From Oceanobacter sp. (GTDB taxonomy: Bacteria > Pseudomonadota > Gammaproteobacteria > Pseudomonadales > Oceanobacteraceae): a stretch of 64,000 bases of DNA. The stretch lies in NCBI GenBank assembly GCA_002733645.1, contig NVWL01000001.1, positions 1 through 64,000 of the forward strand, in the 5' to 3' direction. Under the pieces are notes generated by a model. It did no database searches and had not been told where the DNA came from. It was given only the letters and a program-made list of their open reading frames with translations. Of this stretch, positions 5,055-64,000 are shown piece after piece (positions within the stretch are counted from its first letter, which is position 1; every line of letters starts with the position of its first letter). The translations under genes were made by a program, and so were the position numbers.

Positions 5055-6062
5055 TTATTTAGGGTGTGAGACACACAAAAGTTTAAAACCGTGAGCCTGT
5101 ACCATAACGTCGACTTTATTGAAGGACTCAGCGGCCCACTCTTCATAGCCTAAGTGGCGATTGGCGACGATCCATACTTGGCCATCACGAGTGAGCTGGC
5201 GTCGTGCATCGCGAAATAAGCGCAATGCGAAATCGTAGTCGGTGCGTTTACCTTGATGAAATGGCGGGTTACTGAAGATGTAATCAAAACGTCCGGAGAC
5301 GTCTTCTAAGCCATCGCTGGCGAGTATTTCTACGGTTTGCCCTAGACGCACGCTATTTAATTCGGCGCTGCGTAATGCCAATGCGTCGACATCCGTAAGT
5401 ATCACGTCGAGCTTTGGGTTACGAACTTTCATGGTGAGCCCAATAACCCCTGAGCCACAGCCTAGATCCAAAATACGTCCGTGGGCAGGTGCTGGGATGT
5501 TTTCTAGTAATAAGGCCGTGCCTTTATCCAGTTTTCCATGGCCAAATACGCCGGGTAGGGTCAGAAAACTGCGCTCATCAGCGGTAAATGAACGTGCATA
5601 TTTTAGCCAATTAGGCGCAACGTCTGTTGGCTTGAAGTCCAAGGACCAAAAGCCACAATGGCGAGCGCTGTCAATTTTGGTGCAATCGCTCGCAATTTCT
5701 TTGGTGGCAGACTTGATGCTTTTACCGCCGGCATCATTGGCAGCAACGACATAACAACTGGTTGCGACTGAGGCCAGCATAGTGAGAAGTGTTAGCCCCT
5801 CCACTTTGGACTTTGGCCATAATAAAATCACGACCTTATCTTTTAAGGTGCTGACATCGGTCGGGCCAAAGGTAATATCATCATCACTGATGTGTCCGCG
5901 ATACGCCTGGGCGGTTAACCAGTCGGTGGTGCTGATTTTAATATTGTGTGTTTTAACGTGCTCAAGCCAAGGGCCGGATAGTTGTGCTTCATTACCTAAG
6001 ATAGTTGTGTTGCTTGTTAATAACATGGGGTGACGTAGTAGGGCGTCGTACACATTGCTCAT
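5055..6062 (-). CDS. rsmC: 16S rRNA (guanine1207-N2)-methyltransferase
   Basis: A 335-residue RsmC/RsmD-type enzyme that methylates G1207 of 16S rRNA. The C-terminal half holds the SAM site ILDLGCGSGVIGL (about residues 195-207) and the N2-guanine methyltransferase motif NPPFH (about 264-268). The N-terminal half is the degenerate, non-catalytic methyltransferase-like domain of RsmC. Its start overlaps the stop of the upstream MerR-type regulator by four bases (ATGA), so the two are co-translated. The pairing with a photosensory regulator is probably positional rather than functional. Confidence 0.92.
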   Translation of the reverse strand: MSNVYDALLRHPMLLTSNTTILGNEAQLSGPWLEHVKTHNIKISTTDWLTAQAYRGHISDDDITFGPTDVSTLKDKVVILLWPKSKVEGLTLLTMLASVATSCYVVAANDAGGKSIKSATKEIASDCTKIDSARHCGFWSLDFKPTDVAPNWLKYARSFTADERSFLTLPGVFGHGKLDKGTALLLENIPAPAHGRILDLGCGSGVIGLTMKVRNPKLDVILTDVDALALRSAELNSVRLGQTVEILASDGLEDVSGRFDYIFSNPPFHQGKRTDYDFALRLFRDARRQLTRDGQVWIVANRHLGYEEWAAESFNKVDVMVQAHGFKLLCVSHPK

Positions 6063-6970
6063 TCGTTGATTCCGATCAGTACATCTTTAATGGTTAAGGC
6101 ATCTTGCTGCGCATCACCACTGAGCGTCATCAGGCCTTTGCGTCGAAGCATATCGGCTTCGTCTTGATGGAAGCCGGTACAGAAAATTAATTGGCCGCTT
6201 TCTGCCGCAAGGGTTTGTAGCTGCTGACGTTGAACATCATTCGCGATCGCAGGAATTCGTATGACAGCGCCATCTAATTGTTGCTTGGCGATGAGCATTG
6301 CTAATTCTGTGGTCGGAATATTACCCGCTAGACGCAAAACACGAATGCCAAGCTGTTTTAGTAATACGCCGAGAAGCAGAAGTTCCAATTCATCATCATA
6401 GGTGGTGTTGGCGAGTGCGAGGGTGCCTTTGAGTGCGGTTTCTGAACTATCAGATAGTCGAGCGGTTAACCGGCCTTGTAAAAAACCACCAAAAAACTGT
6501 AAGTGCGATAGTCCTAATGGCTGGGTCACTTGCTCTTTTAATTGCTGGTGTAGGGGTAATAAAAGAAAGCGTAAGGTGATGTCGACAGGAAAAAAATTGG
6601 TGACCTCATCAAGTAGCGCGGCAATCTCTTGGTCGTCGAACTCTTGTATGGCTTTTGCAAGTCGGCTGCGATACTGATTCCACTGCGAAGGCTGCGAAAT
6701 GGTTGTTTTTAACTCAGGCTCAGGCGCGCCGTTAACTAACATTGCCTTGGCCTGAGAGATAGGGATGCCACGTTGTAGGAGCGATACCACTTTCTTAATA
6801 AGTTGAATGTCGGCTTCGGTATAGAGCCTGTGCCCTTTTGCGGTGCGCTTGGGGGTGATCAGTTCATAACGTCGCTCCCAAGCTCTGAGCGTAATGGCAT
6901 TCACACCGGTCTCGTTGGAGACCACCCGAATGGGATAATAGGCAGCTTGAGGTTCAGAGGACGACGACAT
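6059..6970 (-). CDS. MerR-family regulator, LitR/CarH-like with degenerate cobalamin-binding domain (copy 1)
   Basis: A 303-residue regulator: N-terminal MerR winged helix (about 12-80, with LRAWERRYELITPKRT), a helical linker, and a C-terminal B12-binding-like fold (about 183-300). In light-sensing CarH/LitR the cobalamin is held by an E/D-x-H-x-x-G motif. Here the aligned segment (about 191-196) is YDDELE, with Asp193 in place of the His, so adenosylcobalamin is unlikely to be bound. This matches class II LitR proteins of Pseudomonas, which use a separate LOV photoreceptor. The LOV gene is divergent from it, 278 bp away. TTGTACAA-type motifs at 6991-7029 sit just upstream, so autoregulation is likely. 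A paralogue lies at 59049-59906. Confidence 0.88.
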   Translation of the reverse strand: MSSSSEPQAAYYPIRVVSNETGVNAITLRAWERRYELITPKRTAKGHRLYTEADIQLIKKVVSLLQRGIPISQAKAMLVNGAPEPELKTTISQPSQWNQYRSRLAKAIQEFDDQEIAALLDEVTNFFPVDITLRFLLLPLHQQLKEQVTQPLGLSHLQFFGGFLQGRLTARLSDSSETALKGTLALANTTYDDELELLLLGVLLKQLGIRVLRLAGNIPTTELAMLIAKQQLDGAVIRIPAIANDVQRQQLQTLAAESGQLIFCTGFHQDEADMLRRKGLMTLSGDAQQDALTIKDVLIGINE

Positions 6971-6990: not shown

Positions 6991-7029
6991 TTGTACAAAT
7001 CAGTCCAAATTCTATAAGTAGTTGTACAT
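6991..7029. promoter_or_regulatory. TTGTACAA-type operator motifs in the LitR-like/LOV intergenic region
   Basis: The palindrome TTGTACAA lies at 6991-6998, a weak TTCTATAA at 7010-7017 and TTGTACAT at 7022-7029. They lie 20-60 bases upstream of the minus-strand regulator start. The same words occur at the photolyase operon promoter (60875-60973) and at 62487-62538. Binding by the LitR-like proteins is an inference. The rest of 6971-7248 holds no gene. Confidence 0.55.
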
Positions 7030-7248: not shown

Positions 7249-7710
7249 ATGGTCACAGACCTGAATGATGAGCAGGGGCCAATCAGCCTAGAATTGTTAA
7301 AAAAGGCTGTAGATGCATCGAACGACGGTATCGTTATCGCCGAACAAGAAGGCGACGACAACATTCTAATCTATGTGAATAAGGCGTTTGAGCGTTTAAC
7401 CGGATACAGTGCAGAAGAAATTTTGTATCAAGATTGCCGTTTTTTACAAACTGGCGATCGAGATCAAGCTGGCTTACAAGAAATCCGTGAAGCGATTAAA
7501 GACGGCCGTAACGCACGTGTCGTTCTCCGTAATTATCATCGTGATGGCAGCATGTTTTGGAATGAGTTGAGTATCTCGCCTATTCATAATGAACAGGATC
7601 AACTGACTTATTACATTGGAATTCAGAAAGACGTTACAGCGCAAGTGAATGCCGAAAATCGCGCTCGTGAAGCGGAAGAAGAGTTAGCACGCTTAAAGGC
7701 GAGTATGTAA
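7249..7710 (+). CDS. Short LOV blue-light photoreceptor
   Basis: A 153-residue single-domain LOV protein with short flanking helices and no effector domain. The photoactive cysteine is Cys63 in LYQDCRFLQ. Flavin contacts Asn95 (LRNYHRDG), Asn105 (FWNEL) and Gln126 (GIQKDV) are all present, so a photochemically competent FMN chromophore is expected. The sequence closely resembles the short LOV proteins of Pseudomonas putida, including the LYQDCRFLQ variant of the usual GXNCRFLQ motif. The C-terminal helix (about 132-153) probably dimerises or contacts a partner. It is divergent from a LitR-like regulator lacking cobalamin residues, the arrangement in which a LOV protein is thought to supply light sensing. 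A terminator follows at 7763-7784. Confidence 0.95.
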   Translation: MVTDLNDEQGPISLELLKKAVDASNDGIVIAEQEGDDNILIYVNKAFERLTGYSAEEILYQDCRFLQTGDRDQAGLQEIREAIKDGRNARVVLRNYHRDGSMFWNELSISPIHNEQDQLTYYIGIQKDVTAQVNAENRAREAEEELARLKASM

Positions 7711-35236: not shown

Positions 35237-36118
35237 TCAAATATTGATGAGGTACCAGCGGGTAATATCATCCCCCCAAAGCGCAGCAATCCAGCCAGCC
35301 ATGGCCAAGTATGGGCCAAAAGGAATTGGCAGCTGACGATCTCGACCTAGAATCAAAATCCCCGCAATACCAACAATAGCACCCACAACACTCGACAAGA
35401 TGATAATGGTCAGTAGAGACTGAAACCCCAACCAAGCCCCCAGTGCCGCCAGTAGTTTGAAGTCACCATAACCCATACCATCTTTGCCGGTAGCGAGTTT
35501 GAATAGCCAAAAAAAGGCCCACAACACACCATAGCCTAACGCCGCACCGTACACAGCAGACTCTAGGTCAGTGAAAAGCCCTTGAGAGTTCACTAATAAG
35601 CCCAGCCAAAGCAGGCCTAAAGTCATCGGATCAGGCAAAATTTGATGATCAATATCAATCACCGACATCGCGATAAGCAGCCATGTAAAAGCCACCATAG
35701 CACCGAGCTGCCAGCCCCAATCGAATTTAACGATCAACACCGCGGTCATTACCGCCGTTACTAGCTCAACAAGCGGATAGCGGATACCAATCGATGTTTT
35801 ACATTGGGAGCATCGACCACGCAAAAACAGAAAGCTGACGATAGGAATGTTCTGCCAAGCTTTTACTGGTGCATTGCACTTAGGGCAGTGAGAGGCTGGC
35901 GCCACGAGATTGAAGGGTCTACTCAGGTCTTTAATGGCAGGGTGATCGGGCAGGGCCTCATCCATGCCCTCGCACTCTTGTTTCCACTCCCGATACATCA
36001 TGATGGGGTAGCGCAGAATCACGACGTTCAGGAAGCTTCCGATAAGGAGGCCGAGAGTGCAAAGTACAATGATTTGGTAACTTATCGATCCGGCAATAAG
36101 AGTGGATAGTTCGTTCAT
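35237..36118 (-). CDS. pilD: Type IV prepilin peptidase / N-methyltransferase
   Basis: Inner-membrane enzyme that cleaves and N-methylates prepilins. The 293 residues have a cytoplasmic zinc domain with two CxxC pairs (CPKCNA and CSQCKT). The two catalytic aspartates are in VIDIDHQILPD and GYGDFKLLAALGAWLG, and there are about eight TM helices. It abuts pilC (stop and start share a base). Its substrate PilA is encoded 3 kb away in the same block. Confidence 0.96.
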   Translation of the reverse strand: MNELSTLIAGSISYQIIVLCTLGLLIGSFLNVVILRYPIMMYREWKQECEGMDEALPDHPAIKDLSRPFNLVAPASHCPKCNAPVKAWQNIPIVSFLFLRGRCSQCKTSIGIRYPLVELVTAVMTAVLIVKFDWGWQLGAMVAFTWLLIAMSVIDIDHQILPDPMTLGLLWLGLLVNSQGLFTDLESAVYGAALGYGVLWAFFWLFKLATGKDGMGYGDFKLLAALGAWLGFQSLLTIIILSSVVGAIVGIAGILILGRDRQLPIPFGPYLAMAGWIAALWGDDITRWYLINI

Positions 36119-51408: not shown

Positions 51409-51903
51409 TTATTTCACTGTCACAGCTGGCGTGTATTTATTAAATATCCAAGATAAACAGCCCATCAGTATTCCCCAGCCCAAGCCAACGGCGATTAAAC
51501 CGAAAGGCGATAGCTCAATCGCCCCCATGACCGAGCCGGCGTAATAGCTGAAGGGGGCTGCGATGGCTGAAAGCAAAGCAATCAACCATGGGCGCTGAAA
51601 AAAAGTAAGTAACGAATGCTGTAATGTGCAATTGAAAGCCAGCCATAACAACATCAACCAAGCGGGGATGACGGCTAAATTGTAATTAGGAAACTGAATA
51701 AATCCGAGTGAATACCAGAGGCTATCAATGGAAAACCCCGCCACAGTGCCTGCGATAATAAACCGCCACTCATGTATTTTTACAACTTGAGAATGCCACA
51801 TTAAAAAAAGTGCCACAGCACCGGCAGCCCAGAGTGAGCCACCGAGTACACAAGCGAACCAGCACAGCTGAAATGCCACCGCATTAACGATCTTATTTAG
51901 CAT
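51409..51903 (-). CDS. DUF2878-like inner-membrane protein
   Basis: A 164-residue integral membrane protein with about five TM helices and a characteristic SLWYSLGFIQFP segment. DUF2878 proteins are regular members of photolyase/Cfa-like gene clusters in Vibrio and relatives. It follows the Cfa-like gene by seven bases. The function is unknown; a role in handling the modified lipid is only suggested by context. Confidence 0.78.
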   Translation of the reverse strand: MLNKIVNAVAFQLCWFACVLGGSLWAAGAVALFLMWHSQVVKIHEWRFIIAGTVAGFSIDSLWYSLGFIQFPNYNLAVIPAWLMLLWLAFNCTLQHSLLTFFQRPWLIALLSAIAAPFSYYAGSVMGAIELSPFGLIAVGLGWGILMGCLSWIFNKYTPAVTVK

Positions 51904-51910
51904 AAATTTT

Positions 51911-53161
51911 TTATAACTCGCCGAGTACAGGAGTACGACGGTTGAGAGGTTTGGCGAACATTAAATGGACATCGCCAATAACACGCTCAGCAAAACCGCC
52001 TTCGCAGTACGCAAAATAGAAATCCCATAAACGAATGAAGTCTTCGCTGTAACCCTTGGCGATGATGTCTTGTTTGTTTTCTAGGAAGCGTTTACGCCAA
52101 GCCGCTAAAGTGCGTGCGTAATGCGGGGTGATGTCTTCCATGTGCGTCATCTTCATATCGGTTTTGCGTGTAACTGCGGTTTGAATCGCGGTAATACACG
52201 GAATAAAACTGCCCGGAAAAATATAGCGTTTAATGAAGTCGACGTCTTTTTTGGCTTGCTCGTAGCGTTGATCGTCGATAGTGATTGCTTGAATTAGCGC
52301 AATGCCATTATCTTTGAGTAGTCGGCTAATGGTCTCTACGTAGGTGTCTAGATATTCCCAGCCAACGGCCTCAATCATCTCGATGGATACCAGCTTGTCG
52401 AATTGGCCTTCGAGTGCACGATAGTCTTTTTTCAATAGAGTAATTTTATCTTCTAAGCCTTCTTCTTTTACTTTTTGCTCGGCCCACGCGTATTGTTCAT
52501 CAGAAATCGTCGTGGTGGTGACCTTGCAGCCGTAATGTTTAGCCGCATGAATGGCCATTGATCCCCAGCCGGTACCAATTTCTACCAAGTGGTCGCTTGG
52601 TTGTAAGTCGAGTTTTTGGCAGATTCGGTCGAGCTTGTAAATTGAGGCCTCTTCCATCGTCGCCGTCTCAGAGGGAAAAATACCACTGGAATACATCATG
52701 GTTGGATCAAGAAACAGCTCAAACATATCATTGCCCAAGTCATAGTGCGCCGCGATGTTTCGACGTGATCCTTTGGCGGTATTGCGATTGAGGGCATGAA
52801 TGCCTTTCAGGGCAAACTTTCCTATATTTGCGAGGCCGCTATCAAGGCTGTCGACCACGTCTTTATTGCGCGAGAGAATGCGGATCAAGGTAGGTAAATC
52901 GCTACAGCTCCAGTCGCCGGTCATATAAGACTCACCAGCGCCAACGCTGCCATTGAGTGCAATACTGCGGTAGGCCTCGCTGTCGTTGATGGTTAAATTT
53001 ACGCTGAAATCAGAGCTGCCATCGCCGAATAGAAATGAATCTTCGCCTTCAAATACAGTGATAGAGCCTGTGTGTAAATTTTTCAACGTGCCAAACAGTC
53101 CGCTGCGGCAGAACCTATCCATCCACGGCATTTCTTCAGCTTTTAGAGTCAGTGTTTTCAT
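51911..53161 (-). CDS. Cfa-like lipid methyltransferase lacking cyclopropane-synthase catalytic residues
   Basis: A 416-residue SAM-dependent enzyme of the cyclopropane fatty acid synthase family: motif I HLVEIGTGWGSMA (about 191-203) and the NDMFELFLDP lead-in. In E. coli Cfa, Cys139 and His266 help hold the catalytic bicarbonate. Here the aligned positions are Ser159 (MYSSGIF) and Gln291 (ALIQAIT), while Glu264 (IEAVG) is kept. A true ring-closing reaction is therefore unlikely. A methyl transfer to unsaturated acyl chains, as proposed for UfaM-type enzymes, is more plausible. It has a good AAGGA site and follows the DUF1365 gene by 17 bp. Confidence 0.88.
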   Translation of the reverse strand: MKTLTLKAEEMPWMDRFCRSGLFGTLKNLHTGSITVFEGEDSFLFGDGSSDFSVNLTINDSEAYRSIALNGSVGAGESYMTGDWSCSDLPTLIRILSRNKDVVDSLDSGLANIGKFALKGIHALNRNTAKGSRRNIAAHYDLGNDMFELFLDPTMMYSSGIFPSETATMEEASIYKLDRICQKLDLQPSDHLVEIGTGWGSMAIHAAKHYGCKVTTTTISDEQYAWAEQKVKEEGLEDKITLLKKDYRALEGQFDKLVSIEMIEAVGWEYLDTYVETISRLLKDNGIALIQAITIDDQRYEQAKKDVDFIKRYIFPGSFIPCITAIQTAVTRKTDMKMTHMEDITPHYARTLAAWRKRFLENKQDIIAKGYSEDFIRLWDFYFAYCEGGFAERVIGDVHLMFAKPLNRRTPVLGEL

Positions 53162-53178
53162 CGTTATTCCTTCTACCT

Positions 53179-54153
53179 CTATTTCTGTTCTGGATGCAGA
53201 GTATTCTGCGGTTTATGTTTGGGTGTAGGTTGCGTTCTGTTATGAGGATCATTATTGGGGTGATCGTAAAATGGCGCTTTTTTAAGCCATAATCGCATTG
53301 CGTTACTGTATATTCCCCACACTACTTTGAGCGTCATCAACGGATATTGCAGCAGCGCTTGGCGCATACTCGATGCGGTAAGAGCGCGTCGTTGCATCGC
53401 CATGGTGGCATCAAAGTCCAGACGGCCTTCGTTGTGAAACGGCGCGTTCCGCTCTGATTCTGGATCGCTAGTATCGGTAGGTGGCGATTCATTATTGAAC
53501 GTCTGCATATGAATAAAGCACTGATCTGTGATCTCGGGCATGCTCCACACATACGTCATATCTAATGGATTGAACGGCGAAACATGGAATACCTTATCGA
53601 ACACATAGCGGTATCGTTTGCTTGAACTCTCTCCCGCCTTACTATGAACGTGGTCAGCCTTGATGCCACGCCTTTCGAAGCTTTTAGATGTTGGCTGGTT
53701 CGCAATTAAGGTGTAATGAAAGCGCTCATCCCAAGGCGTATTTGTAATTTCAGAGACGATCCCCAGTAAATTTTCCTGCGCATCGTACGCGTAGTAAAAC
53801 GTTACCGGATTAATTAAATACCCAAAGTAACGTAAGTTAGTCATCATGCAAATGGTATGAGGGCGGACACCAGTATCGCGCTCAAATGCGCAGCAAACAT
53901 GATCTTTCAGATCTTGAGTACTGTTTGTTGTGTCAGTGCTTTTATGGTCTTTCAGTTTGAAATAGTCGCCACGACAAAAGCGTGCCAGCGACCAAGGGCC
54001 TGTTCCCCATAAAGACGTTTTTGAAAATACAGCATCAGCCTCATCAAGATTCAACCACAGCATAAATGCGCGGTATTCAATATGATTATCGACCGGGTGA
54101 TAGCGTCGGTGGCGCACAGAGCCTGTAAACAGAGCGCTGTTTAAATAGCTCAC
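53179..54153 (-). CDS. DUF1365 family protein
   Basis: A 324-residue protein of the DUF1365 family: [20 protein letters not shown] at the N-terminus, [19 protein letters not shown] in the centre, and [18 protein letters not shown]1365 genes are almost always beside a Cfa-like gene and the FAD oxidoreductase, as here, suggesting a shared step in fatty-acid modification. It overlaps the FAD gene by four bases (ATGA). Confidence 0.9.
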
Positions 54154-55412
54154 GATAATTTCACACCTAATGCTTCAGTGACACGCAAGGCACTGCAGAC
54201 GCCGTCTTCATGAAAGCCGTTAAACCAGTAGGCACCACAAAAATGCGTTCGATTTATGCCGCTGATTTCCGTGTGGCGTTGTTGGGCAGCCATGCCTTTC
54301 AGGGTAAATACCGGGTGAGCGTATTGAAACTGTCGAATGATTGCCTTCGGATCAATCATTTCTGTTTTATTCAAGGTGACGCAAAAATCGACCGGGGCGG
54401 TTTCAAAATTTTGCAGACGATTCATGTAGTAAGTGACCGCGACCGCATCCTCTTTTTTGCCATCAATATGATAATTCCATGCGGCCCAAGCTAACTTTCG
54501 TTTGGGTAAAATATTGCGATCTGTATGCAATACCACATCGTTCATTTTGTAGGGGATAGCGCCTAGCACGTCCTGTTCGGTCGCGCTGGCATCATTCAGC
54601 ATGTGTAAGGCTTGATCGCTATGACACGCAAAGATCACTTGGTCAAAGGTTTCTGTACCACGGTGGCTGGTAATTTCAACACACGTAGGTTTTCGACTGA
54701 CGCCGTCAACCGGAGTATTTAAATACACTTGTTTAGCCGGTAAGTCTTTCAGCATGCGTTCAACGTACGTACGAGATCCGCCAGAAATGACGCGCCACTG
54801 TGGACGATCATCAACACTTAGCATGCCGTGGTTGTTAAAAAATCGTACAAAAAAGTAGAGTGGAAATTGCATCATCATGTCTTCGCTGGCCGACCAAACC
54901 GCCGCACCCATAGGCACAATGTAGTCATCACGGAAGGCTGAACCATAGTTATTACGCTGTAAATAGCTGCCTAGAGTTTCTTCACGATCCAGCGTGTCGG
55001 CTTTTAGCTCCGCTCGTGTTTCCTTATTAAATCGAATGATGTCGCGAATCATGCCCCAAAAAGAGGGGCGGAAAATATTTCGACGCTGCGCAAACAAACT
55101 ATTGAGTGTATGGCCGTTGTACTCTAAGCCGGTGGTTTCACTTTTTACGCTGAAGCTCATGTCGGAGTCTTCGCTTTTCACACCAAGTTGATCCATTAGG
55201 CGAATGAAGTTTGGGTAGGTCCAATCATTAAAAACAATAAATCCTGTGTTTACTGGCCAAACTTTGCCGTCGATTTCAACGTCGGTGGTTTGTGTGTGGC
55301 CACCACAGTAATCATTTGCTTCGAATAGATGTACGTCGTATTTATGTCGAAGCAACCAAGCACAGGTTAGGCCCGAAATACCGGAGCCAATAATCGCGAT
55401 ACGTTCTTTCAT
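54150..55412 (-). CDS. FAD-dependent oxidoreductase (COG2907-type)
   Basis: About 420 residues from ATG 55412, which shares its A with the SDR stop (TAATG). The N-terminus [19 protein letters not shown] is a dinucleotide-binding motif, followed by [16 protein letters not shown], typical of amine oxidase/phytoene desaturase-like flavoproteins. This family sits with Cfa-like and DUF1365 genes in many proteobacteria and is a candidate for the desaturation step after methylation of an unsaturated acyl chain (furan fatty acid pathway). That role is an inference. A longer reading to 55544 overlaps the SDR gene and is not used. Confidence 0.9.
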
Positions 55413-56203
55413 TATTTTGATTCCTGTTGAGTGTTGGTCGTTGATCTCGACATTGCTGCAGTTATTCTGTGTCGTAAAAAAGCAGGTAAATTCCCAAGCA
55501 TCCATAAAATAAAGGTAAAGCGCTTGGGAAAGTGAATATGCCACGTACGTTTACGTAGGCCTTTCACGATTTCTTTGGCGGCTTGATCCGCAGTAATACG
55601 CATTGGCATTGGGAAATCGTTAACGTCCGTGAGCGGCGTTTTAACGAATCCGGGGCTGACGACTGAAACATCTAAACCAAGGGGGGTTAAATCGGCTTTC
55701 ATGCTCTCAAGAAAATGCGTAACGGCGGCTTTGCTGCTGCCGTAGGCTTGTGCTCTCGGCATAGCAAGCATGGCAACGGATGAGCTAACGCCCACGATAT
55801 AGCCACGTTCACTTTGTTTAAGTAGAGGCAGTGCCGCTCCGACGGTATTCACTAAACCAAGTACATTGGTTTCTAGTACTCGGCGAAATAGAGCGGTATC
55901 AAACTGATTAACATCCACATATTCACAAGTCCCTGCATTGGCGATCACAGTATCTAAGCGCCCAGCCTCAGATTGAATTTGAGCAACGGCAGCGGCTAAC
56001 GATGCTTCATCTGTAATGTCAGCAGCAATGGCTGTGATATTGCTGAAGGCATTTTCTAGGTGCGATAATTTTTCAGCTGAGCGAGCACTAATGTACAAAT
56101 GGGTACACAAAGGGGCTAAGTTTTCCGCCAGCGCTTCGCCAATACCGGACGATGCACCGGTTAACCAGATTACTTGGTTTTTAAGAGGAATCGCGTTGCT
56201 CAT
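55412..56203 (-). CDS. Short-chain dehydrogenase/reductase
   Basis: A 263-residue classical SDR: NAD(P) motif WLTGASSGIGEAL (about 13-25), NAG in VIANAGTCEY, and the catalytic Ser and YxxxK in GVSSSVAML and QAYGSSKAA. The C-terminal third is hydrophobic, hinting at membrane association. It overlaps the SnoaL-like gene upstream by four bases and the FAD gene downstream by one. Confidence 0.92.
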   Translation of the reverse strand: MSNAIPLKNQVIWLTGASSGIGEALAENLAPLCTHLYISARSAEKLSHLENAFSNITAIAADITDEASLAAAVAQIQSEAGRLDTVIANAGTCEYVDVNQFDTALFRRVLETNVLGLVNTVGAALPLLKQSERGYIVGVSSSVAMLAMPRAQAYGSSKAAVTHFLESMKADLTPLGLDVSVVSPGFVKTPLTDVNDFPMPMRITADQAAKEIVKGLRKRTWHIHFPKRFTFILWMLGNLPAFLRHRITAAMSRSTTNTQQESK

Positions 56204-56646
56204 AGTAGTCGCTCCTTCAGCTTTTTAATCATCCAGCCTAATACGGGAATATGCTCGTAGAGCATGGTGCCTGCATCGAAAATATCTTGATGACGAATGA
56301 TTTTTCCGTCTTTCCATTGCAGTAAGCTTACGCCTTCAACACGGATATCTTGCTTGCCTTTATGTAGCTTTGGGTGCCGATAAGTCATAGTCCAGTACAT
56401 CATGGCTGAGGATTCATTACCTTCGGCTTTATGAAAATCAAAGCTAATACTGATGACGTTCGAATACAGTGAAATAAAATAGTGACTTAACTTCTTTAGC
56501 CCGTGTATTTCATGCATCGGATCTTGAAAAATAACGTCGTTTGCATACACCTGAGCGAGCATGTCTTTGGTGACATTGTCTGGCCCTAAGTTTTGATACA
56601 ACGAACAAAACTGAGCATAGGGTGTGCGACCTAGATCAAGACTCAT
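56200..56646 (-). CDS. SnoaL/NTF2-like protein
   Basis: A 148-residue small alpha+beta protein of the SnoaL-like/NTF2 fold: FCSLYQNLGPDNVTKDMLAQ, VIFQDPMHEIHG and the closing GKIIRHQDIFD, a typical signature. It could be an isomerase or a ligand-binding protein. It overlaps both neighbours by four bases in the photolyase operon and recurs in the same operon in other bacteria. Confidence 0.85.
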   Translation of the reverse strand: MSLDLGRTPYAQFCSLYQNLGPDNVTKDMLAQVYANDVIFQDPMHEIHGLKKLSHYFISLYSNVISISFDFHKAEGNESSAMMYWTMTYRHPKLHKGKQDIRVEGVSLLQWKDGKIIRHQDIFDAGTMLYEHIPVLGWMIKKLKERLL

Positions 56647-57626
56647 AACGCATCTCGCTTATCTTGATCGGCTTGTTTACCTTCCTTTAGTACGTGCACT
56701 GGCACTGGACTTAAACTATGAACAATACCTAGGTAACTCATGCCTTTTAAAATCATGTAACTGATGTCGATTTCCCACCAGTAAAACCCTTGGCGCGCGG
56801 ATACTGCCCAGCGGTGATGGTTGTTGTGCCATCCCTCACCTAATGTTAGCAAAGCAAGTAGGCCGTTATTACGGCTGTGGTCTTTGGTATTGAATCGACG
56901 ATTTCCCCAAATATGGCCAAGCGAATTAATGGTGACAGTGGAGTGGAATAACAGCACTGTTGAAATAACAAACCCCCAGACCACCAGCTGTGCGCCGTTG
57001 GTGTTGTAAGTGGGCGCGTAAGCCGCCATTAATTCGCCACCGAGGTAGAGCAAAGCAATAAGGAGTAGTGGGGCGAAACCATCAAAGCGATCTAAAAATC
57101 TTAGTTCCGGGAAACGGGCAAAGTCTTTGATGCGGTGGTGTTGTGTTTTAAAACTGGCGTCACAGGTGAACCAGCCCATATGACTCCACCAAAAACCCCG
57201 CTGTATTGGGGAGTGAAGGTCATCTTCGGTATCCGCATGTTGGTGATGGGCGCGATGGTGTGCGGCCCACCAAAGTGCGCCACGCTGTGCTGACATATTG
57301 CCTAGTAAGGCAAATATAAATTGCCAGAAACGATTGGTTTTATAGCTTCGATGCGCAAAGTATCGATGATAAAACGCGGTGATGGCGAACATCCGTAGCC
57401 AAAATGAGGCTAAACACACGACAATGGCAGTGGTGCTAACCCCTGTTAAAAAGGCAAAAAAACAAGCCAAATGCAAAAGAATAAAAGGGATAACACGAAC
57501 CCAATTAAAAGCTGTGCTTGTCATATCTTCATCGCTACCAGCGTAGGAATCAAACCAGCGCACGATGTTGGTCACTTTGTTAGTCAGCGATCGAGTAAAT
57601 AAGGAGTGTTTGTTCTGTGATTTCAT
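56643..57626 (-). CDS. Acyl-CoA/fatty-acid delta-9-type desaturase
   Basis: About 327 residues from ATG 57626 (AGGA seven bases upstream; a GTG at 57641 is in frame but inside the photolyase end). The three histidine boxes of membrane di-iron desaturases are visible: HRYFAHRS, HHRAHHQHAD and HNNHHRW. There are about four TM helices. It introduces a cis double bond, supplying the unsaturated acyl chains on which the Cfa-like methyltransferase in the same operon could act. It lies four bases after the photolyase stop. Confidence 0.92.
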   Translation of the reverse strand: MKSQNKHSLFTRSLTNKVTNIVRWFDSYAGSDEDMTSTAFNWVRVIPFILLHLACFFAFLTGVSTTAIVVCLASFWLRMFAITAFYHRYFAHRSYKTNRFWQFIFALLGNMSAQRGALWWAAHHRAHHQHADTEDDLHSPIQRGFWWSHMGWFTCDASFKTQHHRIKDFARFPELRFLDRFDGFAPLLLIALLYLGGELMAAYAPTYNTNGAQLVVWGFVISTVLLFHSTVTINSLGHIWGNRRFNTKDHSRNNGLLALLTLGEGWHNNHHRWAVSARQGFYWWEIDISYMILKGMSYLGIVHSLSPVPVHVLKEGKQADQDKRDAL

Positions 57627-57630
57627 GCCG

Positions 57631-59052
57631 TTATCCTGCACAGGCTTTAAAAGTTTCTAGGGCGCGTTCGCGCCCGTACTTGTGTTCTACCACAGGTGCA
57701 GGGTACTTACATTGCAAGCGCTCTGCGGCAGATGGGTTATGTCGTGATTTGGCCGGTAATCCACCAAGTTTAGGTAAGTACTGGACAATAAAGTAACCTT
57801 TGCTGTCAAAACGTTCTGACTGTGTGGTTGGATTAAATATGCGAAAGTATGGCGCGCCATCGGCGCCAGTCGACGCGCTCCACTGCCAGCCGCCATTGTT
57901 GGATGCTAAATCAGCATCGACAAGGTGCTTGCTGAAATAGTCTTCGCCCCAGCGCCAATCAATTAATAAATGCTTGGTCAGAAACATGGCCGTAATCATG
58001 CGCAAGCGGTTGTGCATCCAGCCACGTTCTTTCAGTTGCTTCATGGCTGCATCAACAATGGGATAGCCGGTTTCGCCATCACACCAGCGCTGAAAGTCGT
58101 CTGGTGCATCTCGCCACTTAATATCGTCGTAGTCGGGCTTGAATGACTTATGCTTACACAGATTCGGGTAGGCAACGAGTAAATGACGATAAAACTCGCG
58201 CCAAATAAGTTCGTTAATCCATGTATTAATGCCTTCTTCTCCGCCACTTAATGCACAAGCATTACTTTGCCAAGCGGTGTATATGCATTGGCGTGGAGAT
58301 AGCAATCCGAGAGCCAGATAAAAAGACAAGCCACTGGTGGCATCTAAATCTGGAATATCTCGCCACTCGTGGTAGTGCAAGGCGTCTTTGTCTAAGAATT
58401 CACGTAAACGCTCATGCCCTGAATTTTCGTCAGCAATCCATTCATCATCGGTCTCCCACTTAGGAAGGTTTGTGTTTTCCTGCCAGTGGATTAGCGTATT
58501 CTGACTAATACTTGTCTCATCCTGTTTTTCAGGCGCAGCGCAAGGCGCAGGACAAAACTCTTGCATCTCTTTTAGCCATGATTTTCTAAATGGCGAATAC
58601 ACGCGATATGGATCGCCACCTAAAGTTTTTAGTTCGCCGGGTGCGATAAGACATTGATCGTGAAATTTATTCACGACGATATCGTTGTCGTGACACCAAC
58701 GTGAGACGTTAATATCGCGAAGGCGTTCATTCACTTCATATTCAATATTGAAATTTAATTCACTGAATGTGAATTCTTGCATCAGCTTAATTAAGTGTTC
58801 TTCACACTCGGCAAAACTCGCTTTTGTAATCGTTAGTAGTGGTATACCAATGTTGCTCAGTGACGCATGCAGTTCAGCGATGGCTTGTTTCATCAAGTTA
58901 ATGCGCCGTTCGCCCAATTGGTGTTGTTGCCACTGTGGCTCAACAACAAAAGTAATGGCTAGGGTGTCTTCATCATTGTTACGGCGAGCATGAGCGAGTG
59001 CCGGATTATCATGAATACGAAGATCGGTGCGAAACCAGACAAGGCGGGTCAT
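57631..59052 (-). CDS. phrB: Deoxyribodipyrimidine photolyase (class I CPD)
   Basis: A 473-residue light-driven DNA repair enzyme that splits cyclobutane pyrimidine dimers. It has the N-terminal antenna domain RLVWFRTDLRIHDNPAL and the C-terminal FAD domain with WINELIWREFYRHLL, NNGGWQWSASTGADGAPYFR and RIFNPTTQSERFD. Length equals E. coli PhrB (472). Its start overlaps the stop of the second LitR-like gene (ATGA), so it is co-translated with the light regulator. Confidence 0.97.
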   Translation of the reverse strand: MTRLVWFRTDLRIHDNPALAHARRNNDEDTLAITFVVEPQWQQHQLGERRINLMKQAIAELHASLSNIGIPLLTITKASFAECEEHLIKLMQEFTFSELNFNIEYEVNERLRDINVSRWCHDNDIVVNKFHDQCLIAPGELKTLGGDPYRVYSPFRKSWLKEMQEFCPAPCAAPEKQDETSISQNTLIHWQENTNLPKWETDDEWIADENSGHERLREFLDKDALHYHEWRDIPDLDATSGLSFYLALGLLSPRQCIYTAWQSNACALSGGEEGINTWINELIWREFYRHLLVAYPNLCKHKSFKPDYDDIKWRDAPDDFQRWCDGETGYPIVDAAMKQLKERGWMHNRLRMITAMFLTKHLLIDWRWGEDYFSKHLVDADLASNNGGWQWSASTGADGAPYFRIFNPTTQSERFDSKGYFIVQYLPKLGGLPAKSRHNPSAAERLQCKYPAPVVEHKYGRERALETFKACAG

Positions 59053-59906
59053 GAGCGATTCCCTGATGTAGTGATGAATGTCTGAACTTGCATGGTGATG
59101 TTATCTCCTAGTGCCGTGCCGGATACCAGTGCCTGTGGAATAGCGCCTGAGTAATACACCGGAGTACTACATTCTTCTGCAATATGAAGCCAGTTCGCTG
59201 TTTCGTCATGGTTGCTTGGGTGGATATGAATCCATACCCATGAAGCCTTTACGATCAAACTTGCAATTTGGATGTGGTCAGGTGCGATATTTGGTCCAAA
59301 AAATTCAACACGGTAGCCTGCAGCACCTAAGGCATAAGCGGATGACAGTAATTGTAGCTCAGCATCTTCATGGCTGACCGCCATCAACACAGCGTCTCCT
59401 TGTGCTTGTTTACTTTGCAAACTTATGAGATTGGCCAGCTTACGTTTGAGTAAATAATTAAATCCGTTCAGCACCATAGCAAGATTTGGATCGGCGCGTA
59501 ATTCGCTGAGCACGGGCAATAAGCAGCGTTCGTAGTAAACCGCCATTGGGTATGTGGCTAACCCTGTGGTCCATAAATCATCGAGGCCACGGTAATTTAA
59601 TTCGCAGGCCATAGTCAGCATGTGTGCATTTTGAGCGGCCCAGTCATCGGCGGGAGCATCATTTTGCTCGGGCGGTGCGGTAAGAAGAAGCTTCACCTGC
59701 CTAATCGGGTAGCCTTGCTCTAGCCAATAAATAATATTTTTAACTTGGGTGACATGATTATCGTTATAAAAACGGTGCCCTTTAGGGGTACGTAAGGGGC
59801 TAATAATGCCGTAGCGACGCTCCCAAGCACGCAGCGTCACAGGGTTTACTCCTGTTAGCCGCGCAAACTCGCGAATCGGGTAGCCGCTGAATTGTGCCTG
59901 ATTCAC
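59049..59906 (-). CDS. MerR-family regulator, LitR/CarH-like with degenerate cobalamin-binding domain (copy 2)
   Basis: A 285-residue paralogue of the regulator at 6059-6970, sharing the LRAWERRYGIISPLRTPKGHR winged helix (about 25-45). The C-terminal B12-like domain keeps the fold, but the cobalamin motif ExHxxG is EDAELQ (about 180-185), with Ala182 for His and Gln185 for Gly. It cannot coordinate cobalt in the usual way and is therefore class II LitR-like. It is embedded between DUF523-DUF1722 and photolyase with ATGA overlaps on both sides, so it is probably autoregulated with the operon it controls. Confidence 0.9.
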   Translation of the reverse strand: MNQAQFSGYPIREFARLTGVNPVTLRAWERRYGIISPLRTPKGHRFYNDNHVTQVKNIIYWLEQGYPIRQVKLLLTAPPEQNDAPADDWAAQNAHMLTMACELNYRGLDDLWTTGLATYPMAVYYERCLLPVLSELRADPNLAMVLNGFNYLLKRKLANLISLQSKQAQGDAVLMAVSHEDAELQLLSSAYALGAAGYRVEFFGPNIAPDHIQIASLIVKASWVWIHIHPSNHDETANWLHIAEECSTPVYYSGAIPQALVSGTALGDNITMQVQTFITTSGNRS

Positions 59907-60874
59907 AGATGGTTCCTTAGGCCAAGCTTATAAGGGTGTGGGTTCAGATAGACCTGCTGACGGGCATACGCATTGGCGTCTTCAAAATGATTTAAATGAT
60001 GCTTGAGCAGAGTTAACGGCACGACTAAGGGCACGATGCCTTCACGGTACTGCAGAATCAGTTGTGCCATTTCGCGCTTGTCATCGGCGCTGATTAAGTC
60101 TTTTAAGTAGCCTTGTAAGTGCATTAGCGTATTCGTGTGCATTCTTCGACTTGCAGGCTTGGCTAATGCCGCCATTAACTTCTCAAAGTAAGTATCGGCA
60201 ATACTTTCAACGTCATGAGATAGGTTGGCCAGCAAGCGACCAAGTTCTTTGTAGTGCACAAGGCTATGGGCCATCACTAAGTATTTGTACTTCGAATGAA
60301 AGTCGATCAAGCGTGCAGCGGTCACTTCCTGCTGGCGAAAGAGTTGCCAGTCACGATAGGTGAATACACGTACCAGAAAATTTTCGCGTAGAGCAGCATC
60401 ATTTAGGCGGCCAGCTTCCTCTATCGGTAATAGGGGGTTACGACGAGCAAATTCCTTGGCAAATATCCCAGACACAGTGCCTTCTGGGTGGCCATTAGGT
60501 AAGTAGCGCTTTACTCCAAATACACCGCAGCTTGGACTTTTCTGCATAAAGATAAAGCCACACAATTCTGAACTGTTTGCACTAACGGTAACGGCATGGT
60601 CTTTGAGCTTGTCGGTAACATCAAGCTCGGGGGTATCCACCCCAACAGCGCGAATATTATCGTCGTTAGGATGCTCGCTCACTAAGCGAATCGGTTCGCG
60701 TGGGGTGCCCATGCCGATGGCAACTTCTGGGCAGGTTGAGCGGAAGTCGAAGTATTCGCTCAAAATGTCGGTACAAAAACGTGAGCGCTTGTGGCCGCCG
60801 TTAAAGCGTACTGAATCACCCATCAGGCAGGCACTGATACCAACGGGGATTTTTTCGTTCGATAAGTTAATCAT
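59903..60874 (-). CDS. DUF523-DUF1722 fusion protein (YbgA-like, possible Fe-S enzyme)
   Basis: A 323-residue two-domain protein. DUF523 (about 8-150) has three conserved cysteines (ISACLMGD, STCPEVAIG and SPSCGV), the arrangement that binds a [4Fe-4S] cluster in TudS-type thiouracil desulfurases. DUF1722 (about 195-310) is the YbgA-type domain; in E. coli ybgA is upstream of phr. Here it opens the photolyase operon. The start at 60874 has AGGAGTT upstream. Link to light: 4-thiouridine in tRNA absorbs near-UV, so a thio-base enzyme co-expressed with photolyase would make sense; this is an inference. Confidence 0.9.
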   Translation of the reverse strand: MINLSNEKIPVGISACLMGDSVRFNGGHKRSRFCTDILSEYFDFRSTCPEVAIGMGTPREPIRLVSEHPNDDNIRAVGVDTPELDVTDKLKDHAVTVSANSSELCGFIFMQKSPSCGVFGVKRYLPNGHPEGTVSGIFAKEFARRNPLLPIEEAGRLNDAALRENFLVRVFTYRDWQLFRQQEVTAARLIDFHSKYKYLVMAHSLVHYKELGRLLANLSHDVESIADTYFEKLMAALAKPASRRMHTNTLMHLQGYLKDLISADDKREMAQLILQYREGIVPLVVPLTLLKHHLNHFEDANAYARQQVYLNPHPYKLGLRNHL

Positions 60875-60973
60875 TTGTATAACTCCTGAAGCGACCTTTG
60901 TATAACTTTATATTGGCCGCTTCAGGTTGTACAAGTCAACTCTTTTTGTACAATAAAATGATATTTTGTATAA
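60875..60973 (-). promoter_or_regulatory. Array of five TTGTAYAA operator-like motifs at the photolyase operon promoter
   Basis: TTGTATAA at 60875-60882, 60898-60905 and 60966-60973, and the palindrome TTGTACAA at 60927-60934 and 60946-60953. Several are spaced 19-23 bp, about two helical turns. The first touches the ribosome site of the DUF523-DUF1722 gene. A perfect 9-bp inverted repeat CCTGAAGCG/CGCTTCAGG (60885-60893 and 60918-60926) brackets the second copy. The gap 60875-60975 holds no gene. LitR-type repressor binding is an inference. Confidence 0.7.
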
Positions 60974-60975
60974 GT

Positions 60976-61386
60976 TTATGCGTCTAGACTGACTTTTTGT
61001 ATCACTATTCGGCTAATCGCTGAGGCCACTTCAGGGTCTAGGCCAACCGGCGGGTGCAAATCGATAGTGATTGTATGGCCTTGCACGGCCAGTTCTGCTT
61101 GTAGAGTTTCTATTATTTTGGGCACATCGCGGCGCAAGTGGCGTCCAGCGGCAAAGAATAGAGGCAATACATCAATATGGGTGTATCCCTCGCTCGCTAA
61201 TAAAGTCACCTGCTGTTCAAGAGATGGCTCTGCCAACTCCATGTAGGCAAGCTCTACACGTTCTGTGTTGAGTCCAGAGCGAATGTTGGCAATAAGATCA
61301 CCAAAAGGAGCAAGCCAGTTTTGATCGGTACTGCCGTGAGCCAGCAAGATGGTTGATGTATGTGATGAAGAGGGTTGAGTACTCAT
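60976..61386 (-). CDS. Sirohydrochlorin chelatase/CbiX-like protein
   Basis: About 136 residues from ATG 61386, a single-domain CbiX-type protein with LLAHGSTDQNWLAPF and the VLPLFFAAGRHLRRDV metal-site block (His in AHG and GRHLRRD). Short CbiX forms insert Co or Fe into sirohydrochlorin, or may dimerise. It follows the renalase-like gene by four bases and lies upstream of the photolyase operon promoter. Confidence 0.88.
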   Translation of the reverse strand: MSTQPSSSHTSTILLAHGSTDQNWLAPFGDLIANIRSGLNTERVELAYMELAEPSLEQQVTLLASEGYTHIDVLPLFFAAGRHLRRDVPKIIETLQAELAVQGHTITIDLHPPVGLDPEVASAISRIVIQKVSLDA

Positions 61387-61390
61387 GTAA

Positions 61391-62425
61391 TTATTGCTCC
61401 AAAAGTCGTTGTGCGGCGGCTTTGCCACTGATCCAGGCGCCTTCAATGGAACCGTGCTGGCACCAGTCTCCGCAGATGGCTAGATTATGCGCGTTGTCAT
61501 GAAATGCGCCAAGTTCGGGGGCTTGAGTGGGTATAGAGAAAAGCCAGCGATGCAGCCAAGTGTCTTGAGTATCAGGAAGTTGACCCCCTAAGCTTTCAGC
61601 AAAAGCTTGAGTGAGGTGCGCAAACACGTCTTCGCGCGATGCATCAACATGCTGCTGGCTCCATTCGTGGGTTGCCTGAATAACCCACTCATCGCTTGCA
61701 CTGGCCTGATCATGACGGCCGGGCTTAGAGGTATTGCGAGCTATCCAAGCGAGTGGCCCCGTTTTAACAAAGGCAGCATCTATCTCAGTGGTCAGCGGTT
61801 CAGCAAATCCCAGTAATAATGTCCAGCAAGGTTGCATTGTGTAATTTTGGATTTGCTCTATAAATGGGCTGTCTACCGGTAAAAGAGGAAGTGCTTGCTC
61901 GGGCGGCACATTAATGACTAAAGAATCAAAGGGACCGTGGCGGTTGTTGTTATCATCGTTCAGATACCATTGGCCACTTTTTTCATTATTTATAAACTCA
62001 GTGCTCACAATGCGAGTTTGAGTGATGAATTCTGCCGCCGCTTCTAATAAACCTCGGCTAAGGCCTGTCATTCGCGGCACACCGACAAAGCGGCGAGCGT
62101 TATCCGGCGAAGGGGTTGCGCCATGCTCATCAATGATCCAAGGCGTGACTGGCCATTCTGCGACCCAGCCTTTGTTGCTCCAATGATCAAGCTCTACAGC
62201 GAACTCAGGCGTGTGTGCTCGCATGAATTGAGCCCCCATGTCCCACGAGGACTCGCCCACCTTTTTACTGGATATACGCCCGCCTGATCCTCGGGATTTA
62301 TCAAATACAGTGACGTGAGCACCGCTGGCGGAGAGATCTTGCAGAGCCGTTAATCCGGCAATGCCGGCGCCTACGATAGCCACTCTAGGAGTAGTTGACT
62401 CGTTTGTACGTGCTGTCTTGATCAT
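61391..62425 (-). CDS. Renalase-like FAD/NAD(P) oxidoreductase
   Basis: About 344 residues from ATG 62425. The N-terminal FAD motif VAIVGAGIAGLTALQDL is followed by VFDKSRGSGGRISSK, then C-terminal LAICGDWCQHGSIEGAWISG. This is the bacterial renalase-like/amine-oxidase-type family often found near photolyase genes. The substrate is unknown. Its promoter region carries TTGTAYAA-type motifs, shared with the divergent acyl-CoA dehydrogenase. Confidence 0.85.
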   Translation of the reverse strand: MIKTARTNESTTPRVAIVGAGIAGLTALQDLSASGAHVTVFDKSRGSGGRISSKKVGESSWDMGAQFMRAHTPEFAVELDHWSNKGWVAEWPVTPWIIDEHGATPSPDNARRFVGVPRMTGLSRGLLEAAAEFITQTRIVSTEFINNEKSGQWYLNDDNNNRHGPFDSLVINVPPEQALPLLPVDSPFIEQIQNYTMQPCWTLLLGFAEPLTTEIDAAFVKTGPLAWIARNTSKPGRHDQASASDEWVIQATHEWSQQHVDASREDVFAHLTQAFAESLGGQLPDTQDTWLHRWLFSIPTQAPELGAFHDNAHNLAICGDWCQHGSIEGAWISGKAAAQRLLEQ

Positions 62426-62486
62426 AAAAAAGCCACCGTGAAACTTATGCAAATTTAAGTGGGTAGTGTAACCCCAGTAATATTAT

Positions 62487-62538
62487 TTATACAAAACTAT
62501 TGTACAGATAAATCTTATTATGTATAACTATCGTATAA
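62487..62538. promoter_or_regulatory. Divergent promoter with TTGTAYAA-like motifs
   Basis: TTATACAA (62487-62494), TTGTACAG (62500-62507), ATGTATAA (62520-62527) and TCGTATAA (62531-62538) lie between the renalase-like and acyl-CoA dehydrogenase starts. The third follows the second by 20 bp, the same phasing as at 60927-60973. They would place one or both genes in the same light regulon. Confidence 0.5.
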
Positions 62539-62565
62539 CTAATTAATTTCGATTGAGGAAAAGTC

Positions 62566-64000
62566 ATGAGTTATAAAGCGCCACTACGAGACATGCAGTT
62601 TGTTCTTTATGAAGTACTGAACGGCGATAAAATTCTTCCAGAATTGCCAGGCTGTGAAGATGCTACCCGTGAAATCATGGATGCCATGCTGACAGAAGGG
62701 GCGAAGCTTGCTGAAAATGTATTGGCCCCGCTTAACGCTTCTGGAGATCGTGAAGGCTGTCAGTACGATACTGAAACACACGATGTGAAAACACCCGACG
62801 GTTTCCCTGACGCCTATCGTCAGTTTGCTGAAGCAGGCTGGACTGCCTTAGCTGGCCCAGTGGAATACGGAGGTCAAGGCTTACCTCACACTCTGAATAC
62901 ACTGGCTGAAGAGATGGTCTGCTCTGCCAACCTTTCTTTGGGTATGTATCCGGGTCTGACTCACGGCGCGGTCAATGCGCTTACGTCTTACGGCACCGAC
63001 GAATTAAAAGAAAAGTACCTTCCAAAGCTAATCAGCGGCGAGTGGACAGGCACAATGTGTTTGACCGAGCCGCAGTGTGGTACGGATTTGGGTTTGATTC
63101 GCACCAAGGCAGAACCGCAAGCCGACGCCTCTTATGCTATTTCGGGCACTAAAATTTGGATCACGGGCGGCGAGCACGATTTAGCCGATAATATTATTCA
63201 CTTGGTGTTAGCTAAGTTGCCGGATGCGCCTTCTGGCTCGAAAGGTATCTCACTATTCCTTGTGCCTAAGTTTTTAGAAGACGGCAGCCGTAACCCCGCA
63301 TTTTGTGGTGGTTTAGAGCATAAAATGGGGATTAAAGGCTCAGCCACCTGTGTAATGAATTTTGAAGAAGCCAAAGGCTGGTTGATAGGCGAACCTCACA
63401 AAGGGTTGCAGGCCATGTTCGTGATGATGAACAGCGCACGCTTAATGGTAGGCTTGCAGGGGTTAGGTATTGCGGAATCGGCGTATCAGGTATCACTAGA
63501 GTTCGCCAAAGAGCGTCGTCAGTCACGTGCGTTGTCAGGCCCACAAGAGCCAGACAAGCCAGCGGACAGCATCATGGTTCACCCAGATGTACGCCGTATG
63601 TTGCTGCGTCAAAAAGCGACCATCGAAGGCAGCCGTGCATTGGCCTATTTCACGGCAATGCAGCTCGATATTGCTCATAAAGCTGAGTCGGCGGAAGAAC
63701 GCGAGCAAGCAGATGATATGGTGCAATTGTTGACCCCTATTGTTAAGGCTTTCCTAACGGATGAGGGTTTCTTCTGTGCCAACGATGCGCTGCAGCTAAT
63801 GGGTGGCTCTGGTTTTACTCAAGATTGGCCGGTCGAGCAATTTGTCCGTGATTCACGTATTACGCGTATCTACGAAGGCACTAACGGTATCCAGGCGCTG
63901 GATCTTGTGGGCCGTAAGCTGGGTCACGCGGGTGGACGTGCGGTGAAACGCTACTTCGCCATGATGGACGCTTACCTCAAAACAGACGGTGGTGTACCTC
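62566..64000 (+). CDS. Acyl-CoA dehydrogenase (3' end beyond the window)
   Basis: Starts ATG 62566 with GAGGAA ten bases upstream; 478 codons are visible and the frame is open to the window end, so it is truncated by the window, not broken. It is a long-form (about 600-residue) acyl-CoA dehydrogenase related to the FadE-like/DmdC group. Blocks include GTMCLTEPQCGTDLG (flavin/substrate loop), ISGTKIWITGGEHD, EHKMGIKGSATC and the C-terminal QLMGGSGFTQDWPVEQFVRDSRITRIYEGTNGIQ, split here at QLMGGSGFTQDWPVEQ. The catalytic base is the Glu in RIYEGTNG. Beta-oxidation of an acyl-CoA is the likely role; it may be part of the lipid response. Confidence 0.9.
   Translation, partial: MSYKAPLRDMQFVLYEVLNGDKILPELPGCEDATREIMDAMLTEGAKLAENVLAPLNASGDREGCQYDTETHDVKTPDGFPDAYRQFAEAGWTALAGPVEYGGQGLPHTLNTLAEEMVCSANLSLGMYPGLTHGAVNALTSYGTDELKEKYLPKLISGEWTGTMCLTEPQCGTDLGLIRTKAEPQADASYAISGTKIWITGGEHDLADNIIHLVLAKLPDAPSGSKGISLFLVPKFLEDGSRNPAFCGGLEHKMGIKGSATCVMNFEEAKGWLIGEPHKGLQAMFVMMNSARLMVGLQGLGIAESAYQVSLEFAKERRQSRALSGPQEPDKPADSIMVHPDVRRMLLRQKATIEGSRALAYFTAMQLDIAHKAESAEEREQADDMVQLLTPIVKAFLTDEGFFCANDALQLMGGSGFTQDWPVEQFVRDSRITRIYEGTNGIQALDLVGRKLGHAGGRAVKRYFAMMDAYLKTDGGVP

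Follow-up and report, generated by a model that had tools for sequence, protein, structure and literature searches.

Light-responsive switches that pair a class II LitR repressor with a short LOV protein have been described in Pseudomonas, namely PplR1-3 with PpSB-LOV and PmlR2 with PmSB-LOV (PMC9758184). According to the part of that source available to us, PmlR2 of Pseudomonas mendocina is a repressor with two TGTACA-N12-TGTACA binding sites, the first covering the -35 element and the second lying between the transcription start and the start codon, and is removed from the DNA by lit PmSB-LOV. The same part gives T(G/A)TACA-N12-TGTA(C/T)A as the PplR1 consensus, places phrB, a short-chain dehydrogenase gene, an FAD oxidoreductase gene and ufaM in the pmlR1 region, and describes class II LitR as keeping only the helical-bundle half of the CarH-like C-terminal part (PMC9758184). 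TudS together with DUF1722 is the make-up of RudS, as set out in the available part of PMC11417400. On the cofactor the available texts disagree: PMC11417400 calls class II LitR B12-dependent, whereas PMC9758184 does not. The available part of a Vibrio cholerae MerR paper (PMC5241685) gives no LitR site, and a literature search, which most subscription papers lay outside, found, among the titles listed, none on LitR or photolyase in the Thalassolituus family.

We analysed a 64,000-nucleotide stretch of an Oceanobacter sp. genome (hereafter the window), in which a gene of RudS make-up lies in a row with a LitR gene, a photolyase gene and lipid genes. Judged from spacing and strand, these likely form one operon, whose promoter carries five repeated words, numbered here in gene sense as boxes 1 to 5:

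59903..60874, minus strand: rudS, TudS (2-thiouracil desulfurase family) fused to DUF1722 (PF04463 and PF08349)
59049..59906, minus strand: litR1, MerR/CarH-like regulator (PF13411 at 8.1e-18)
57631..59052, minus strand: phrB, deoxyribodipyrimidine photolyase (NF007955 above cut-off)
51409..57641, minus strand: likely remainder of the operon, with fatty acid desaturase, SnoaL-like, SDR, FAD oxidoreductase, DUF1365, CFA-synthase-like (UfaM-type) and DUF2878 genes
60966..60973, minus strand: box 1, TTATACAA when read in gene sense; box 2 follows 20 bp downstream
60946..60953, minus strand: box 2, TTGTACAA, upstream of the -35
60934..60939, minus strand: -35 of the rudS operon, TTGACT, of which TTGAC is the same in all 15 promoters aligned
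60927..60934, minus strand: box 3, TTGTACAA, directly next to the -35; many relatives have it in degenerate form or have lost it
60910..60915, minus strand: inferred -10, CAATAT, spaced 18 bp from the -35; relatives often have CAGAAT
60898..60905, minus strand: box 4, TTATACAA, close to where transcription is inferred to start
60875..60882, minus strand: box 5, TTATACAA, with the ribosome-binding site (60883-60887) on one side and the ATG on the other

The sequence-only reading had described five near-identical 8-bp words within 99 bp, and a word search of the 64-kb window bears this out: TTGTAYAA words on the plus strand start at 60875, 60898, 60927, 60946 and 60966, all of them in the 101-bp gap between rudS and a CbiX-like gene (60976-61446). 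Their start-to-start gaps are 23, 29, 19 and 20 bp, so that three of the four fall within the 19-23 bp given for several of them, 29 bp being the exception. The words had also been called phased, which is loose: strict helical phasing fails. In gene orientation the boxes start at 0, 20, 39, 68 and 91, which at 10.5 bp per turn places them, by arithmetic, at about 0, -34, -103, +171 and -120 degrees, and by this arithmetic no boxes other than 1 and 2 lie on a common face of the helix.

The argument that such a word is expected about once per 64 kb proved weak when taken alone, and it is clustering and conservation that carry the case. The window gives 14 TTGTAYAA matches counted strand by strand, compared with a mean of 4.68 and a maximum of 13 in 100 shuffles, and single words were therefore rejected as evidence. 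No 99-bp interval held more than 2 words in 300 Markov-1 sequences of 64 kb or in 100 sequences of local composition, compared with 5 at the rudS promoter. Nor is the TGTAYA/TRTACA core equally dense at random promoters: it is absent from 52 of the 57 upstream regions in the window (150 bp each), while rudS has 5 cores, litR2 has 2, one other gene has 1, and the acyl-CoA dehydrogenase gene and a divergent FAD gene have 3 each in one region common to both. Two further copies of TTGTACAA, at 33461 inside ORF 33070-34254 and at 36322 inside ORF 36118-37347, look like chance matches.

Near-identical words are present, as had been noted, at 6991-7029 and 62487-62538. The first of these places belongs to a second LitR gene that diverges from a LOV gene:

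6059..6970, minus strand: litR2, second MerR/CarH-like regulator (PF13411 at 3.5e-17)
6991..6998, no strand assigned: litR2 box, TTGTACAA, downstream of the litR2 -10
7022..7029, no strand assigned: litR2 box, TTGTACAT, within the litR2 promoter spacer
7032-7037 and 7009-7014, minus strand: inferred litR2 promoter, TTTACA, N17, TAGAAT
7249..7710, plus strand: short LOV protein, divergent from litR2, with the photoactive-cysteine motif QDCRFLQ

The boxes expected at a LOV/LitR locus are thus there, but they occupy the litR2 promoter and not obviously that of the LOV gene. A core lies near a conserved litR2 promoter-like block at 26 of 27 loci, the exception (L062) lacking the block as searched. 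In the six loci of one genus (g6: L060, L061, L065, L066, L068 and L069) the litR2 boxes are not in the spacer but immediately downstream of the -10-like block, as a pair with a 10-bp step. litR2 adjoins the short LOV gene at all 27 LOV loci, and QDCRFLQ is kept in 26 of the 27, window included; the LOV match of one genome (G043, L052) has one in-frame TGA. The best solved relatives of the window LOV protein are annotated 'sensory box protein', and several of them we take to be Pseudomonas short LOVs. The LOV-litR2 locus shares a contig with the rudS cluster in 15 relatives, the two lying about 31-58 kb apart as they do in the window; in G028, G015 and G003 they lie far from each other, and in other relatives they are on different contigs.

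The linkage of three promoters holds in an amended form, in that the third drives an acyl-CoA dehydrogenase gene:

62566..64000, plus strand: acyl-CoA dehydrogenase gene (PF00441, PF02771, PF02770), running past the window end
62487..62538, plus strand: boxes before this gene, TTATACAA, TTGTACAG, ATGTATAA and TCGTATAA, making a 20-bp pair and an 11-bp direct repeat

These words start at 62487 (TTATACAA, which is TTGTATAA on the other strand), 62500 (TTGTACAG), 62520 (ATGTATAA) and 62531 (TCGTATAA). Among 26 acyl-CoA dehydrogenase loci (25 passing E 1e-220, and G033 added from another search), 19 have at least two cores before the gene; 18 of these come with LitR, and the other is G033, a draft genome with no LitR match that was kept in the boxed group and not in the LitR-less group. 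The seven loci with fewer than two cores, one of which has a single core, are all from LitR-less genomes. The 11-bp direct repeat occurs in 15 of the 19 boxed promoters and the 20-bp pair in 9 of the 19. Several relatives (L098, L216, L218 and L221) have a box near the start of the divergent gene as well, the copy in window interval 61391-62566 being degenerate, and judged from the boxes both divergent genes of that interval may be controlled by them. Conservation and a match to the genome model described below suggest that the acyl-CoA dehydrogenase gene is probably an extra target of the operator; it is a less certain member because the boxes there coincide with promoter hexamers. Among the titles and abstract starts listed in our search, with most subscription papers outside it, none reports LitR or light control of an acyl-CoA dehydrogenase gene.

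We then compared rudS promoters across the family. In 15 aligned promoters of 27, the invariant columns are letters belonging to boxes 1, 2, 4 and 5, the TTGAC of the -35, and a GT next to box 5, whereas conservation is lacking at box 3. At least two cores lie within 200 bp before rudS at 27 of 37 loci, a set from which 13 short, TudS-only matches (E above 1e-8) were excluded. G012 apart, 27 of 27 LitR-bearing genomes have boxes before rudS; G041, which lies outside the LOV sample, is counted among them through its LitR1 from a separate search. Of the 8 genomes with no LitR match, none has boxes there. The LitR-less genomes belong to two genera (g4 and g7), so these contrasts are contrasts between clades and not independent events. 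In G012 neither of two rudS copies (L208, L204) has boxes, yet a LitR-like gene lies near one of them, and these copies are possibly under different control. G029 keeps two rudS boxes and has LitR2 and LOV with no LitR1 match, which points to LitR2 as the binder of the rudS boxes.

The sequence-only reading had proposed a genome-wide scan for paired motifs as a check. We built a model of boxes 1-2 from the rudS promoter sequences of 17 relatives, leaving the window out, and ran it on nine genomes of the genus. At E < 0.1 it recovered the rudS promoter in seven of the nine, six of which had supplied promoters to the model, the acyl-CoA dehydrogenase promoter in five of the nine, and no other place. 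In the window's own genome these two promoters were found at E 1.1e-4 and E 0.0085, respectively, the next other place stood at E 1.86, and no third place fell below E 1 among the 150 of 1771 first-look candidates scored; weak operator members could escape a scan of this depth. The litR2 promoter, with its different layout, was not recovered by the boxes 1-2 model. Weak recurrent matches (E 1.1-1.4, covering positions 2-21 of 32) were seen in G031, G030 and G027.

Simpler searches of the window's genome gave a noisier picture. The exact 20-bp word pair occurs at rudS only, and allowing one mismatch adds the acyl-CoA dehydrogenase promoter and two further places; with two mismatches there are 16 + 24 matches compared with 22 + 27 in the reversed control, and since this is no excess, only matches with 0-1 mismatch are informative. 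Searched for together, with as many as 3 mismatches allowed, boxes 1-3 match rudS at 0 mismatches and two places at 3, with 2 and 2 in controls. Paired cores with free spacing gave 9 forward and 7 reverse places compared with 4 and 3 in controls, and palindromic paired cores gave one place compared with 0. The paired-core places outside the window, two of which look like LexA boxes, were not counted as regulon members. At two loci of this genome (L005 and L007), TGTATA pairs lie before lexA-like and recN-like genes, as named by eye, and we take these pairs to resemble LexA boxes. Such LexA-like pairs confound simple TGTAYA pair searches.

A LitR1 query against the window's genome returned two matches only, LitR1 and LitR2, which are 30% identical over 227 columns. 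The closest LitR1 proteins among the matches listed are those of Oleibacter marinus (60% identity), a Thalassolituus (57%), a Bacterioplanes (47%) and Oceanobacter kriegii (42%). The predicted structure of LitR1 (mean pLDDT 88.8, pTM 0.67) has a DNA-binding domain, a helical bundle and a Rossmann-like domain, and would differ from class II LitR as published in having a Rossmann-like domain too. The first 13 PDB matches of the model are Thermus CarH chains (5c8e, 5c8d, 5c8f; best 5c8e), with a query TM-score of about 0.5 because domain placement differs; the predicted fold of LitR1 is CarH-like. None of the 25 LitR proteins compared has the [ED]xHxxG cobalamin motif, and six of them have an isolated [ED]xH between residues 161 and 215, neither LitR1 nor LitR2 being among these. 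With the motif missing, B12 sensing is not expected, and light should enter by another route, the obvious one being the LOV neighbour. A LitR tree of 25 rows, made without classes I and III-V as references, left its deep branches unsettled: the free tree splits litR2 from the Pseudomonas LOV-adjacent LitR, and the AU test rejects neither the LOV-adjacent LitRs (p-AU 0.517) nor the operon LitRs (p-AU 0.283) as one clade.

Taken together, the five words very probably serve as an array of operators for a repressor of the class II LitR type, be it LitR2, LitR1 or both, in a switch of the same kind as that of Pseudomonas. The idea that three promoters share one operator and LitR-like regulators finds support in conservation, in co-occurrence with LitR, in the genome model scan and in the match to the Pseudomonas operator, so far as sequence comparison can indicate; any assignment of a particular LitR to a particular box is putative. 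In the dark, LitR sitting on boxes 1-3, which surround the -35, and on boxes 4-5, which reach from the start site to the ribosome-binding site, would block RNA polymerase and keep the rudS-litR1-phrB-lipid operon repressed. Under blue light the short LOV protein would form its cysteine-flavin adduct, bind LitR and take it off the DNA, and this release would switch on photolyase, tRNA thiouridine removal and the lipid-modifying genes. The box in the litR2 promoter spacer would give litR2 self-control, and the acyl-CoA dehydrogenase gene would be a further target of LitR. Dark repression, DNA binding and release by lit LOV are carried over from Pseudomonas and presumed to be the same in Oceanobacter sp. 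What the DNA itself displays of this putative switch is the boxes, their conservation, their co-occurrence with LitR, the set of genes, the lack of a B12 motif and the LOV cysteine motif.

Against an operator array stand the lack of N12 spacing, the boxless G012 with its LitR-like gene, and the poor conservation of box 3, and other origins for the words have to be weighed. Chance clustering in AT-rich intergenic DNA could draw on how common single TTGTAYAA words are in shuffled windows; the simulations never reach more than 2 per 99 bp, conservation across the family refutes it, and we give it almost no credence. Slightly less remote, although still very improbable, is that the boxes bind some other regulator, such as LexA or a redox regulator, that co-occurs with LitR. 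Photolyase genes can be damage-controlled, and some of the genome-wide pairs before genes named by eye as lexA-like and recN-like resemble LexA boxes. LexA boxes end in CTG...CAG, however, and the TTGTAYAA words lack these ends, while box presence across the family tracks LitR, and the half-site agrees with the one published for LitR.

The words might instead be promoter elements, a -35-like TTGTAC and a -10-like TATAA, kept for RNA polymerase. Both do resemble promoter hexamers, most of all at the acyl-CoA dehydrogenase promoter, where the boxes coincide with TTGTAC-N17-TATAAC, a sequence that would suit a sigma-70 promoter. At rudS, however, the boxes come on top of a separate invariant TTGAC -35, and box 5 sits between ribosome-binding site and ATG; litR2 likewise has a separate conserved promoter-like block beside its box. 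LitR-less genera retain the genes but not the boxes, and the half-site equals the one footprinted in Pseudomonas (PMC9758184, available part), so that we regard this explanation as unlikely and retain the LitR operator array.

The array differs from its Pseudomonas counterpart in spacing. The first pair at rudS has a 20-bp step in 18 of 27 family promoters, window included, 19 bp in three, 21 bp in three and no such pair in three; boxes 4-5 are 21-25 bp apart in 24 of the 27, and none of the 27 has an adjacent 18-bp step (N12). A named-genome scan with LitR1 alone as query gave no match, and one with an alignment as query gave at least 80 loci, from which the Pseudomonas- and Halomonas-group figures are drawn; they describe these listed loci and should not be taken as rates of entire genera. 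In the 50 Pseudomonas-group loci among the matches listed, core pairs 6-40 bp apart have steps of 18 bp (85 times), 32 bp (35), 27 bp (20) and 31 bp (6), and none of 20 bp, compared with 7 core pairs altogether in three base shuffles; rudS, litR and phrB stand in a row at 47 of the 50. Across the 22 Halomonas-group loci among the matches listed, the commonest core steps are 18 bp (9) and 11 bp (6), the latter the same as at the window's acyl-CoA dehydrogenase promoter, and rudS lies beside litR at none. Six Halomonas-group litR loci (L131, L143, L161, L169, L171 and L180) have 11-bp core pairs about 240-1270 bp upstream of litR. Aligned on the common TTGACT, boxes 2 and 3 here, with a step one base wider, are the counterpart of Pseudomonas Site 1, and boxes 4 and 5 hold the place of Site 2, whereas box 1 is extra, with no counterpart in most Pseudomonas promoters compared.

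More tentatively, the family may read its LitR box in several geometries (a ~20-bp pair, an 11-bp direct repeat, and boxes in and below the litR2 promoter), with LitR acting as flexible units or a CarH-like tetramer and not as a rigid dimer; the rudS operator would have shifted upstream by one box, from 2+3 (Pseudomonas Site 1) to 1+2, with light control kept and extended to fatty acid oxidation. We regard this combined picture as somewhat doubtful. The operator array itself would extend the Pseudomonas light switch to the marine family around Thalassolituus, Oleibacter and Oceanobacter, in which an evolutionary series (boxes with LitR, none without, spacing shifted, one box decaying) makes operator turnover under a kept regulator testable. 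The acyl-CoA dehydrogenase target, if true, would link light to lipid turnover.

Among known systems, class I LitR/CarH of Thermus, Myxococcus and Bacillus, which are B12-based light-sensing repressors, have the MerR domain, helical bundle and Rossmann-like domain in common with LitR1, and Thermus CarH is the best structural match of the LitR1 model; they differ in the [ED]xHxxG cobalamin motif, which the compared LitR proteins lack. The 11-bp step at the acyl-CoA dehydrogenase promoter presumably recalls CarH operator repeats. RudS light-responsive operons combine a TudS-DUF1722 gene with photolyase and LitR genes, as here, in an account that is enzyme-centred and, in its available part, gives no operator layout (PMC11417400). 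Closest is the Pseudomonas class II LitR/short LOV system, with the same rudS-litR-phrB order and lipid genes of matching kinds, the same litR next to a short LOV gene, the same half-site T(G/A)TACA / TGTA(C/T)A at the rudS promoter, the same plan, with a pair at the -35 and another between the start site and the ATG, and likewise no complete B12 ligand motif. It differs in spacing (20/19/29/23 bp in the window, mostly 18/32/18 in Pseudomonas), in the extra upstream box 1 and the decay of box 3 in many relatives here, and in the acyl-CoA dehydrogenase promoter with its 11-bp direct repeat; as to adjoining genes alone, an RsmC-like gene lies beside litR2 here and fol genes in P. mendocina. The light switch is thus known from Pseudomonas, and what sequence comparison adds here is its changed spacing and a probable acyl-CoA dehydrogenase target.
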